Virus record (IMG/VR): IMGVR_UViG_3300032435_000039
Span: 1 to 35,559 of that record
DNA: 35,559 nt
Reading direction: 5' to 3' (one strand)
Source: a virus
A program made the position numbers and the translations under genes. Under the pieces are notes generated by a model. The model did not search any database, was not told the DNA's origin, and was given only the letters and a program-made list of their open reading frames with translations. Numbering within the stretch: the first letter of the stretch is position 1; each line of letters begins with the position of its first letter. Shown piece after piece: positions 4,365-13,001 of the stretch.

Positions 4365-4637
4365 ATGACACAAGTCCGCCAAATCAATCGAACACGAGAC
4401 GCGATCACCGTATTCGACGAACTGTCCTGCGAGACGATCGTCCTCACGATCATCGCCGAGGACTGCGGGATCTATGCAGTGCAGACTGACGACGCAGCCT
4501 ACCAGCTAATCCCTGACGGTGGCGATCGGTGGGAGCTATCCCCACAGCCGGAGGGATCGACATTCGATGGGCAGGACACCAGATTTGTGGTGGCCGGTGC
4601 GTGCTGGGAAACGAAACAGACATACGCAATCGAGTAA
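4365..4637 (+). CDS. Hypothetical small early protein (90 aa)
   Basis: This is the first gene after the predicted promoter, started by ATG 4365 behind GGGAAACGAAAC. It is a soluble, acidic protein with Trp, Tyr and paired Cys residues but no recognised motif. It is followed at once by a terminator-type hairpin (4653-4677). It therefore sits in a self-contained leader-gene-terminator unit like the two cassettes behind it. Function unknown. Confidence 0.65.
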   Translation: MTQVRQINRTRDAITVFDELSCETIVLTIIAEDCGIYAVQTDDAAYQLIPDGGDRWELSPQPEGSTFDGQDTRFVVAGACWETKQTYAIE

Positions 4638-4711
4638 CATCTTCCGCCTTCCACCGGGATAGGCTCCGGGTTTTTTTCACACAGCAAGGAAACGAAACAA
4701 TGAAGATCACA
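4631..4711 (+). repeat. 81-bp direct repeat, copy A (terminator plus leader)
   Basis: The block runs from the CGAG codons at the end of one gene through the terminator, CACACAGCAAGGAAACGAAACA and the first four codons (MKIT) of the next gene. Copy B (4888-4968) differs at only two positions (A/G at 4636/4893, A/C at 4661/4918). The period is 257 bp. Confidence 0.85.
4653..4677 (+). terminator. Intrinsic terminator between cassettes (copy 1)
   Basis: ACCGGGA (4653-4659) pairs with TCCGGGT (4665-4671) with one central G-G mismatch and a 5-base loop, followed by seven T. It is part of an 81-bp block that is copied at 4888-4968. Confidence 0.65.
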
Positions 4712-4894
4712 AGAAATACACCATTAATCCATATTGCAATCCATGCCGCGTTGGTCGAGAACGACCTGCCGGCCACCGCCTACAACGTGTCACGAGTGGC
4801 TCATAACTACATGATTACGTTATGCGGTGAAGGCACCGACATTCGCGACGCTCTTGCTGCGACGTTCGGTGGCGGTCTTGAAGACTACGAGTGA
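4700..4894 (+). CDS. Hypothetical cassette protein (64 aa)
   Basis: ATG 4700 follows AAGGAAACGAAACA, and the first four residues MKIT are shared with the next gene because they lie in the duplicated 81-bp block. The frame is open further upstream, but that part overlaps the previous gene and its terminator. The small soluble protein is rich in His, Ala and Asn. No family recognised. It stands alone between two copies of the same terminator, like an exchangeable accessory gene. Confidence 0.6.
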   Translation: MKITRNTPLIHIAIHAALVENDLPATAYNVSRVAHNYMITLCGEGTDIRDALAATFGGGLEDYE

Positions 4895-4968
4895 CATCTT
4901 CCGCCTTCCACCGGGATCGGCTCCGGGTTTTTTTCACACAGCAAGGAAACGAAACAATGAAGATCACA
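4888..4968 (+). repeat. 81-bp direct repeat, copy B
   Basis: Near-identical copy of 4631-4711 (two substitutions), again covering the stop codon of one gene, a terminator, the GGAAACGAAAC leader and the first codons MKIT. A shorter, degenerate third copy of the stop and hairpin portion lies at 5187-5229. Confidence 0.85.
4910..4934 (+). terminator. Intrinsic terminator between cassettes (copy 2)
   Basis: Same hairpin as at 4653: ACCGGGA / TCCGGGT with one mismatch, loop TCGGC and a run of seven T (4928-4934). Confidence 0.65.
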
Positions 4969-5193
4969 CTGACAAACAACTTCCACGCCACCTCGACCCG
5001 CACAAAACTCGGCCACAAAACAGCCATTGCGGTAAGGGCGATCAAACGCCGACTATGCACATCTGCTGGCTGTACATGCTCAGATGATCTTGGGACTCGT
5101 GGCGACCAGCGGCAGCCAGCCGGTGGCACTGTGGTGATCGAGCCTGCTGCTGGCGGCGATGTGATGTTGAGCCTGCATACGGCGATCGAGTAA
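4957..5193 (+). CDS. Hypothetical cassette protein (78 aa)
   Basis: ATG 4957 lies behind AAGGAAACGAAACA in copy B of the 81-bp block. The protein is basic in its first half (RTKLGHKT, RAIKRRLC), with two Cys close together (CTSAGCTC, about residues 34-41) that could bind metal, and acidic towards its end. No family recognised. It is followed by the third, degenerate terminator copy (5209-5229). Confidence 0.6.
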   Translation: MKITLTNNFHATSTRTKLGHKTAIAVRAIKRRLCTSAGCTCSDDLGTRGDQRQPAGGTVVIEPAAGGDVMLSLHTAIE

Positions 5194-5229
5194 CACCTTC
5201 CGCCGTTTCCGGGATCGGCTCCGGTTTTT
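5187..5229 (+). terminator. Degenerate third terminator copy
   Basis: CGAGTAACACCTTCCGCC followed by CCGGGATCGGCTCCGG and TTTTT resembles the 81-bp block, but the stem is only four base pairs plus a wobble (5209-5224). It is probably a weaker terminator. Confidence 0.45.
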
Positions 5230-5244
5230 AAAAACGAGCAACCA

Positions 5245-5448
5245 ATGACACAAAAAACAGGTAACCCGCAATTGCTGCTGAGGTTGCCGGCGGCGCTGCG
5301 AGCGGCCGTCATCGCGACGGCAAAAGCCAAATCGGTAACGGCTCAGGCGATCATCCTCGGGATCGTCGCACATCATTACGGTATCACTGACCAGCCACCA
5401 GTTCGCGGGCGGCCGAGAAAAATGAGCACGCCTAGACGACGACGATAG
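5245..5448 (+). CDS. Ribbon-helix-helix type DNA-binding protein (67 aa)
   Basis: Residues about 7-46 read NPQLLLRLPAALRAAVIATA and onwards. This is a short beta strand followed by two helices (the second around AQAIILGIVAHHYG), the pattern of Arc/CopG ribbon-helix-helix repressors. The C-terminus is strongly basic (RGRPRKMSTPRRRR). Such proteins bind operators as dimers, and autoregulation or control of nearby early genes is likely. A second small protein with the same plan lies at 15644, behind a related promoter and leader region, so the pair may control the two units. Confidence 0.6.
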   Translation: MTQKTGNPQLLLRLPAALRAAVIATAKAKSVTAQAIILGIVAHHYGITDQPPVRGRPRKMSTPRRRR

Positions 5449-10213: not shown

Positions 10214-10242
10214 TTGATATCATTTTAGAGTGTTGCTATAGT
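10214..10242 (+). promoter_or_regulatory. Strong sigma-70 type promoter
   Basis: TTGATA (10214-10219) and TATAGT (10237-10242) are spaced by exactly 17 bases, each matching consensus at five (-10) and four or more (-35) positions. Transcription would begin near 10249-10251, just in front of the first hairpin of the structured RNA. Confidence 0.75.
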
Positions 10243-10249
10243 TCAAATC

Positions 10250-10362
10250 CACTGCCGATGAATACGAGACATCAGCAGTCTACAATTAGACCTACGCGGA
10301 TTAATTCCGTGTTTTTCCGCCGCCATCGGTCAGCTCGTATCTGATCGATGGCGGCGTTTTTT
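10250..10362 (+). ncRNA. Structured short RNA / attenuator-like leader upstream of helicase
   Basis: Four hairpins follow one another. P1 is CTGCCGATG/CATCAGCAG (10252-10260 with 10270-10278, one mismatch). P2 is GTCTA/TAGAC (10278-10291). P3 is ACGCGG/CCGTGT (10294-10312), followed by T residues. P4 is a 16-bp stem (10318-10333 with 10341-10356, one G-T) followed by six T. The 7-base loop of P4 (CTCGTAT, 10334-10340) is a perfect complement of ATACGAG in the P1 loop (10262-10268), allowing a kissing interaction. CCGATG of P1 (10255-10260) could instead pair with CATCGG of P4 (10324-10329). With its own promoter and terminator it could be a trans-acting RNA or a transcription attenuator for the replication genes. 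Confidence 0.65.
10318..10362 (+). terminator. Very strong terminator hairpin before the helicase gene
   Basis: CGCCGCCATCGGTCAG pairs with CTGATCGATGGCGGCG (16 bp, one wobble) around a 7-base loop, followed by TTTTTT (10357-10362). It ends only 12 bases before the helicase ATG. Confidence 0.85.
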
Positions 10363-10374
10363 ATGCAGGTTGAC

Positions 10375-11805
10375 ATGGATTATAAAACGTTTCTGGATCG
10401 GAAAACTCAATCAGATCGCAACTTCGGATTCGATGCGATTGAGCTGCCTGATGTTATGTTTGATTTTCAAAAAACACTTACGACGTGGGCAATTAAGCAG
10501 GGGAGGGCCGCAGTGTTCGCTGATTGCGGACTGGGCAAAAGTTTAATGCAACTTGCCTGGGCTGATAATATTGTCCGGCACACAAATAAACCGGTGCTGA
10601 TTCTGACGCCGCTGGCTGTAGCACCACAAACGATCAGGGAGTCAGCTAAGTTTGGATTCGATGCGAGCCACTCAAAAGACGGGATACACTCAGGCGGGAT
10701 TGTGATAACAAACTACGAGCGATTGCAGCGGTTTGATAGCAAGGACTTTATCGGGGTTGTGTGCGATGAGTCGTCCATTTTAAAAAACTTTGCAGGGCAA
10801 CGCCGCAGTCAAATCACACGATTCATGGCAAAGATTCCTTATCGTTTGCTTTGCACCGCAACAGCAGCACCGAATGATTACGTCGAGCTTGGGACATCGT
10901 CGGAATCACTGGGTGAGTTGTCGCGTAGTGACATGCTGAAACGATTCTTTCGACAATTTGATGACAAGGGTGTAAAGAACGAACAGAAGAAACAGGACGA
11001 GGCAGAACGGCTTATTGAACATGAACCTTCATATTTTCATAAATTATCTTATCGAGTAGCTCAAACAATCGGCCAGTACCGGCTGAAGAATCATGCTGTC
11101 AGCCACTTCTGGCGATGGGTCGCGTCATGGTCTAAGGCTTGTCGTATGCCTTCCGATTTGGGTTTTGATGATGGCAAATTTATCCTGCCCGGACTCACCA
11201 GCGAGGACCACATCATTGAGGTTCCTCCGGCACCAGGACAACTGTTTACAGTGCCTGCAAAGGGGATGGGGGAGGAACGAGCGGAGCGAAGCCGAACATT
11301 ACGAGAGCGTTGCGAGTATGCTGCAAAACTTGTGGATCATAACAGGTCTGCCGTGATTTGGTGTCACGCAAATCCAGAGGGCGACATGCTCGAAAAGATC
11401 ATTCCTGATGCTTTACAGATCGCCGGGAAAACATCGGACGAGCAAAAACTAGAACGGTACGAGGCGTTCGCGAATGGCGAACTTCGCGTGCTGGTGATTA
11501 AGCCAAAAATTGGAGCATGGGGCCTGAACTGGCAGCACTGTAATCATGTTGTTGAGTTTGCCACTCACAGTTATGAGCAGCACTACCAAGGGCTGAGGCG
11601 TTGCTACCGATTCGGCCAAACGCAGGCCGTACATAACGACGTGATTGCAACAGAGGGAGAGGTGAGAGTGCTGGCTAATATGCGACGCAAGGCCAAACAA
11701 GCGGACATGATGTTTGAGCATCTGGTCCGTGAAATGAATCGAGCGGAACGGATTGAACGAACTAACCAATTTACTAACAAACTGGAGCTACCAAAATGGT
11801 TGTAA
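10375..11805 (+). CDS. SNF2-like DEAD/DEAH helicase (476 aa)
   Basis: A superfamily 2 ATPase of the phage SNF2-like type. It has ADCGLGKS (Walker A, about residues 49-56), VVCDESSILK (motif II, about 128-137), TATAAPND (motif III, about 161), IGAWGLNWQHCNHVV (motif V) and QGLRRCYRFGQ (motif VI). It probably remodels or unwinds phage DNA in replication or recombination. I chose ATG 10375, with AGGT at 10367-10370. The ATG at 10348 lies inside the terminator stem and would encode its poly-T tract. The gene overlaps the methyltransferase gene by 10 bases, a pairing frequent in phages. Confidence 0.9.
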   Translation: MDYKTFLDRKTQSDRNFGFDAIELPDVMFDFQKTLTTWAIKQGRAAVFADCGLGKSLMQLAWADNIVRHTNKPVLILTPLAVAPQTIRESAKFGFDASHSKDGIHSGGIVITNYERLQRFDSKDFIGVVCDESSILKNFAGQRRSQITRFMAKIPYRLLCTATAAPNDYVELGTSSESLGELSRSDMLKRFFRQFDDKGVKNEQKKQDEAERLIEHEPSYFHKLSYRVAQTIGQYRLKNHAVSHFWRWVASWSKACRMPSDLGFDDGKFILPGLTSEDHIIEVPPAPGQLFTVPAKGMGEERAERSRTLRERCEYAAKLVDHNRSAVIWCHANPEGDMLEKIIPDALQIAGKTSDEQKLERYEAFANGELRVLVIKPKIGAWGLNWQHCNHVVEFATHSYEQHYQGLRRCYRFGQTQAVHNDVIATEGEVRVLANMRRKAKQADMMFEHLVREMNRAERIERTNQFTNKLELPKWL

Positions 11806-12963: not shown

Positions 12964-13001
12964 TTGTAAGCCGTTAACAGTTTATGATATTAACTGTTAA
13001 C
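12964..13001 (+). promoter_or_regulatory. Promoter with perfect inverted-repeat operator
   Basis: GTTAACAGTT (12973-12982) and AACTGTTAAC (12992-13001) are exact reverse complements separated by TATGATATT. A possible promoter (TTGTAA 12964-12969, 18-base spacer, TATTAA 12988-12993) runs through it, so a dimeric regulator bound here would block transcription of the initiator gene at 13030. Candidate binders in this window are the two ribbon-helix-helix proteins and the winged-helix protein. Confidence 0.6.

Follow-up and report, generated by a model that had tools for sequence, protein, structure and literature searches.

Phages must time and limit the expression of their replication proteins, and the means by which they do so outside lambda-like models are poorly known. 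The viral record IMGVR_UViG_3300032435_000039, analyzed here over its full 35,559 bp (the window), raises this question in a specific form: why should a promoter be followed, before a DNA helicase gene is reached, by a short RNA that folds into successive hairpins and ends in a strong intrinsic terminator whose entire loop is complementary to the loop of the first hairpin?

All parts of the element lie on the plus strand. A sigma70-type promoter (10214..10242) combines a -35 box TTGATA (10214-10219), a 17-nt spacer and an extended -10 box TATAGT (10237-10242); in a consensus scan it has 10 of 12 consensus matches, with a TG ahead of the -10. Transcription is predicted to start at about 10246-10250, and the -10 box ends 8 nt ahead of the 5'-terminal hairpin H1 (10251..10279), whose arms (10251-10260/10270-10279) form 9 pairs and one C.A mismatch around a 9-nt loop, AATACGAGA (10261-10269). 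This loop includes ATACGAG (docking segment A, 10262..10268), the exact complement of CTCGTAT (docking segment A', 10334..10340), which constitutes the whole terminator loop. Between the two folds a middle hairpin, H2 (ACGCGGA-TTAAT-TCCGTGT, 10294..10312). The intrinsic terminator hairpin (10318..10356) has 16 pairs, one of them G.U, and a 7-nt loop; its stem is directly followed by the T-run TTTTTT (10357..10362), and it is the strongest such hairpin listed on either strand by the consensus scan. The folding z-score of the element is -5.4, none of the shuffles being equally stable. A sequence-only reading of this stretch had pointed to the promoter, H1, further hairpins and a 16-bp terminator, all of which were recovered where it had placed them, as was the exact 7-nt complementarity of the two loops. 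Two further copies of ATACGAG occur in the window, at chance level. Downstream lies the candidate regulated gene, a DNA helicase (10375..11805; PHROG DNA helicase, E 1e-56). Its likely start is the ATG at 10375, 18 nt past the terminator stem, rather than the alternative start at 10363, because its relatives mostly begin at the equivalent of residue 5-6.

The closest relatives of the window offer a first view of how this element evolves. One contig is identical across the stretch compared, and two others (L084 and L085) are 96-98% identical in DNA across the RNA and the gene upstream of it. Their similarity to the window falls steeply just past the terminator T-run, where a different helicase allele begins: positions 10357-10375 thus form a mosaic boundary, with the RNA and upstream genes in common and the downstream helicase allele differing. 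L084, L085 and the window agree in the two loops, the terminator and the two promoter hexamers, and differ in the promoter spacer. The few changes observed affect the stems: in L085, a C>T change turns the sole C.A mismatch of H1 into a T-A pair, giving 10 perfect pairs, and in L084 one G.U pair of H2 becomes G-C. As both loops are invariant in L084 and L085, no covariation is visible in the window's own lineage, and its variation is too limited to test the loop pairing alone. A sister contig carries a second element (L086, 5155-5188), unrelated in sequence to that of the window and alike in design: a hairpin GCCG-GGTGACAG-CGGC, a middle hairpin and a terminator with the loop CCTGTCAC.

Across the instances collected, two layouts recur. 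In type I, that of the window, H1 exposes 6-8 paired loop bases and is followed by a middle hairpin and a short-loop terminator; the loops mostly consist of one free 5' base and seven paired bases, a size that suits two closed hairpins in a kissing complex. The middle hairpin is present in type I relatives, often GNRA-capped, and together with a CAACAAC linker is their best-conserved sequence. In type II, a short-stemmed H1 carries a long loop, of which 8-12 bases pair with a terminator loop of 25-40 nt with a small hairpin of its own towards its 5' side. The distance from the end of A' to the 3' arm of the terminator is 0-3 nt in most instances.

Subfamilies with more divergent members provide the test that the window's lineage lacks. 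As a query against viral contigs we took AACAACGCGGGNAACCGC, which comprises the middle hairpin plus linker of a single type I subfamily and includes neither loop. Among its 15 matches, three lay in unrelated sequence and 12 were elements, and these homologues use four different loop pairs, GTAGACG/CGTCTAC, CTAGCAG/CTGCTAG, CTACCAG/CTGGTAG and GTAGCTG/CAGCTAC, all perfect. Over the six distinct type I sequences, the loop-loop helix is 100% paired, with double changes in four of its seven pairs and one-sided changes in none; covariation was counted within the homologous subfamily only, because MAFFT misaligns unrelated elements. For the whole type I structure, all measures lay above those of 500 of 500 shuffles, a count to be read in light of the relatedness of the sequences, and above every slid register. 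Type II pairs compared by eye (TTGGCCGCC/GGCGGCCAA in L314 versus TTGACCGCC/GGCGGTCAA in L345; CGTAGCGGGC/GCCCGCTACG in L069 versus CGTCACGGGC/GCCCGTGACG in L056) appear to show the same compensatory retention of loop pairing. Comparison of subfamilies of both types thus strongly supports a predicted H1 loop/terminator loop pairing that is kept by compensatory change. The sequence-only reading had named, as evidence against itself, homologues in which hairpins persist and loop complementarity is lost; the homologues found here keep complementary loops, with compensatory changes in independent families. It fared less well in a second proposal, an alternative fold in which CCGATG of H1 would open the terminator by pairing with CATCGG of its 5' arm: this complementarity exists in the window, but amounts to 3-5 pairs in nine other type I elements; it is probably incidental, and the alternative fold was rejected.

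A covariance model of the type I subfamily, R1, built with the loop-loop pairing left out, recovered L086 (E 3e-4) and, in L028, one site at 0.006 and a weakly matching one at 0.44; all three have a cognate loop pair of 6-9 nt. The window element was not matched in this search; it shares the architecture of the R1 subfamily, with no demonstrable sequence homology. For the window's own copy, the proposed docking rests on architecture and exact complementarity, plus covariation in other families. The predicted structure is well supported; what was observed in the window holds up, and a whole family lies behind it.

Where do these elements stand? We catalogued 24 instances, picked for complementary loops and including several mutual homologues. 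A -10-like box lies 0-14 nt ahead of H1, which makes H1 the predicted 5' end of the transcript, and segment A mostly starts 5-7 nt past the expected transcription start; a few members, L028, L370 and L374, match a promoter poorly. On the other side, an ATG follows the terminator at 6-28 nt in 21 of the 24 instances (the window's gap of 6 becomes 18 with the likely start at 10375), and the distance to the start codon is 17-28 nt in nearly all cases; L028 (twice) and L127 have no ATG within 60 nt past the terminator. An ORF starts within 30 nt of 23 of 32 terminators with complementary loops, versus 26 of 118 others (p = 3e-7, homologues counted separately). The downstream products are DNA helicase, three non-homologous types of replication-initiation protein and HNH endonucleases. 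Since one RNA subfamily precedes all three initiator types, the RNA goes with the position and not with one protein; the window's RNA itself stands ahead of a different helicase allele in sister phages. Among the initiators found behind one RNA type, those of L370 and L374 have near-identical C-terminal halves and unrelated N-terminal halves, apparently a case of domain shuffling. The window element has a promoter directly before H1 and a terminator directly before a replication-type gene, the helicase, and putative copies of this docking design, unrelated-looking in sequence, precede DNA-replication genes in many environmental phages. Each element present within one phage has a different loop pair.

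Starting from the predicted anatomy, conserved loop-loop pairing and position demonstrated by these comparisons, the reading we prefer, with confidence a little short of even, is that the window element may be a cis-acting kissing-loop attenuator that sets the expression of phage replication genes. RNA polymerase would start just upstream of H1 and produce a leader of about 110 nt containing, in order, H1, a flexible linker with the middle hairpin, and an intrinsic terminator, the loop of which docks on that of H1. With the two closed hairpins docked, the terminated state would be locked, so that most transcripts would end ahead of the helicase or replication-initiator gene, whose ATG lies about 17-28 nt on; anything that keeps the loops apart would let polymerase read through and the replication gene be expressed. 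We infer that termination occurs in vivo, that docking favours it and that a trigger exists; the function of the leader and the sign of its effect are likewise deduced. Docking is favoured as the OFF or post-termination state because the loop geometry of type I implies a formed terminator. The sequence-only reading had suggested a switchable attenuator of helicase-methyltransferase-replication genes: the part concerning position fits the recurrent placement before replication genes, and the attenuation itself is retained here as a conjecture. The recurrence of this design before replication genes points to a possible, little-known RNA brake on phage replication, and a conserved 5' hairpin that docks on a terminator loop would make intrinsic termination conditional in a novel manner. 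The design would lend itself to engineering, as the loop pair can be freely altered provided that both sides match, and the mechanism is directly testable in vitro since the families supply natural compensatory variants. More tentatively still, these elements may represent a widespread and so far undescribed class of phage RNA switches, in which the 5' hairpin of the transcript reads the terminator loop through a private kissing pair; each replication gene would have its own orthogonal, modular attenuator, with more than one per phage, and the element would travel from phage to phage as a cassette bounded at its 3' end by the terminator.

The main rival to the attenuator is a stable, autonomous, trans-acting small RNA, a reading that we consider unlikely on balance. 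Docked on the 3' terminator hairpin, the 5' hairpin would here fold the RNA, about 100 nt long, into a compact form that resists nucleases and works in trans, whether as a decoy, as a protein ligand or as an anti-defence RNA; that it stands before replication genes would be incidental. With H1 at the predicted 5' end in nearly all instances, the RNA would indeed be almost nothing but the docked fold; many of the terminators are very strong (-16 to -39 kcal/mol), and the conserved middle hairpin and CAACAAC linker of type I could bind a protein. The tight spacing to the next ATG is, however, unexpected for such an RNA, and free variation of both loops among close relatives makes base-pairing with a conserved target unlikely, although a protein bound to the conserved middle hairpin would be compatible with it.

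The sign of the switch could also be reversed. As segment A' leaves the polymerase, before the 3' arm of the terminator is made, it could pair with A and delay or topologically block the terminator, giving readthrough, with termination when A is occupied. In nascent RNA lacking the 3' arm, A:A' pairing gives the lowest predicted energy for 21 of 24 elements; docking could therefore hold the terminator back, which counts against the attenuator as drawn above. Type II, moreover, keeps large loops (30-40 nt) though a short loop would terminate better. Against this kinetic antitermination, the type I loop sizes fit a kissing complex of two closed hairpins with the terminator formed, and in the prefix fold the H1 of the window stays closed owing to its stability. 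We judge it distinctly improbable.

Comparison with known systems bears both on the attenuator and on a third alternative, action between molecules. In function, the systems closest to these elements are the CI RNA of phage P4 and plasmid rep leaders that contain a pseudoknot or an attenuator. In ColIb-P9, a repZ pseudoknot pairing controls translation and is blocked by an antisense RNA, RNAI; in pT181-type leaders, a leader segment competes for the terminator stem. ColE1 RNAI/RNAII and similar kissing complexes form about seven fully paired bases between two hairpin loops; the phage elements resemble them in the number of loop-loop pairs, but the ColE1 contact is intermolecular, whereas here a 5' hairpin would reach the terminator within one RNA. 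In I-complex and IncL/M rep leaders, according to papers cited in PMC10724649, the first hairpin's loop has its pairing partner farther downstream, just before the replication-initiator gene. Our elements share this pairing of the first leader hairpin's loop ahead of a replication gene, as in ColIb-P9 repZ, but their partner is the loop of an intrinsic terminator, and they occur in phages, not plasmids. The pT181-type attenuator likewise has a terminator in a replication gene's leader (reference cited in PMC10724649); unlike it, the leader segment here pairs with the terminator loop and leaves the stem intact. In P4 immunity, replication genes are kept silent by complementary segments of the leader together with premature termination (PMC4825925), a logic also seen in the P1 C4 type and similar to that proposed here, except that the CI RNA of P4 is a separate, processed molecule with two targets, where the elements described here have one intramolecular pair with a terminator loop. 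By analogy with P4 or plasmids, terminated RNA could pair with nascent leaders of the same phage and exert a copy-number control of replication, as the position before replication genes, the premature-termination logic and the different loop pair of each element in one phage would allow. This feedback or immunity in trans is nevertheless very improbable: A and A' are already satisfied within one molecule; near the element there is one A/A' pair and no third segment complementary to two leader sites as in P4 CI, nor does the window hold a third complementary copy beyond chance; and the consensus scan lists no promoter-like site on the minus strand near 10214-10362 that could serve an antisense gene opposite H1, a feature of the I-complex.

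Database searches yielded no described counterpart. At the gathering threshold, the 4227 Rfam models gave no match in the window (best sub-threshold match, E 5) or in ten element-bearing loci, and no matching description was found in the literature searched, a set that most subscription journals fall outside. DNA similarity searches with the window element, an L374-type and an L345-type element against 50,697 phage records returned nothing useful. Cultured phages sharing helicase or initiator genes showed no promoter-linked kissing terminator, and few, unconvincing 6-8-nt matches, in the stretches examined (S-H1 whole; parts of LS06-2018-MD05, S-CBS3, CBW1004C-Prop1, PAN70, CP2, TL-2011b, epsilon15, IFTN1, yong1 and F10). 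R1 had no match in 199 genomes of the phylum of a Planctomycetota MAG, a result that, lacking a positive control, is uninformative.

How often should such loops arise by chance? Loci around relatives of the helicase were scanned for strong terminators with a loop complementary to an upstream segment. Complements of at least 7 nt were found for 20 of 48 non-redundant terminators with loops up to 45 nt, versus 3.9 expected from shuffled loops, and complements of at least 9 nt, at a lower stem threshold, for 10 terminators versus 0.6, both counts including opposite-strand readings of one palindromic hairpin or near-identical homologues. Nine of 177 short-loop terminators had a loop complementary over at least 6 nt to an upstream hairpin loop, versus 1.7 expected from shuffled loops. 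Chance complementarity within an ordinary promoter-plus-terminator intergenic region is hardly tenable even for the window, where the 7-nt match alone is just modestly improbable, and is refuted for the related families by this excess and by the compensatory loop changes. Among about 80 relatives of the helicase, most other upstream regions have no element, which indicates that the element is not tied to this helicase. The pattern GATGNNTACGAGNNCATC proved too loose, with at least 120 matches, and its loci amount to a roughly random control set; three plausible kissing-terminator elements occur there (L112 and L127, both on the minus strand, and L197), which suggests an architecture broader than helicase-bearing phages.

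The window holds other structured sites. At the very start of the record (12-46) stands a strong terminator-like hairpin with an A-rich loop (GGCCAGTCGCC-AAAAAATACGGGA-GGCGGCTGGCC-TTTT), for which no upstream partner is visible because the contig begins there. An intergenic cassette, CTTCCGCCTTCCACCGGGATMGGCTCCGGGTTTTTTTC then CACACAGCAAGGAAACGAAACAATGAAGATCACA, recurs at 4630-4710, 4890-4960 and 5190-5250 as two near-identical copies and a partial one, each a small terminator-like hairpin before a short ORF. Finally, a long palindrome without a T-run, GTTAACAGTTTATGATATTAACTGTTAAC (12970-13001), lies about 30 nt ahead of the replication-initiation gene (13030) and is operator- or origin-like; in its place, L086 has its kissing-loop element, after a methyltransferase-like gene.
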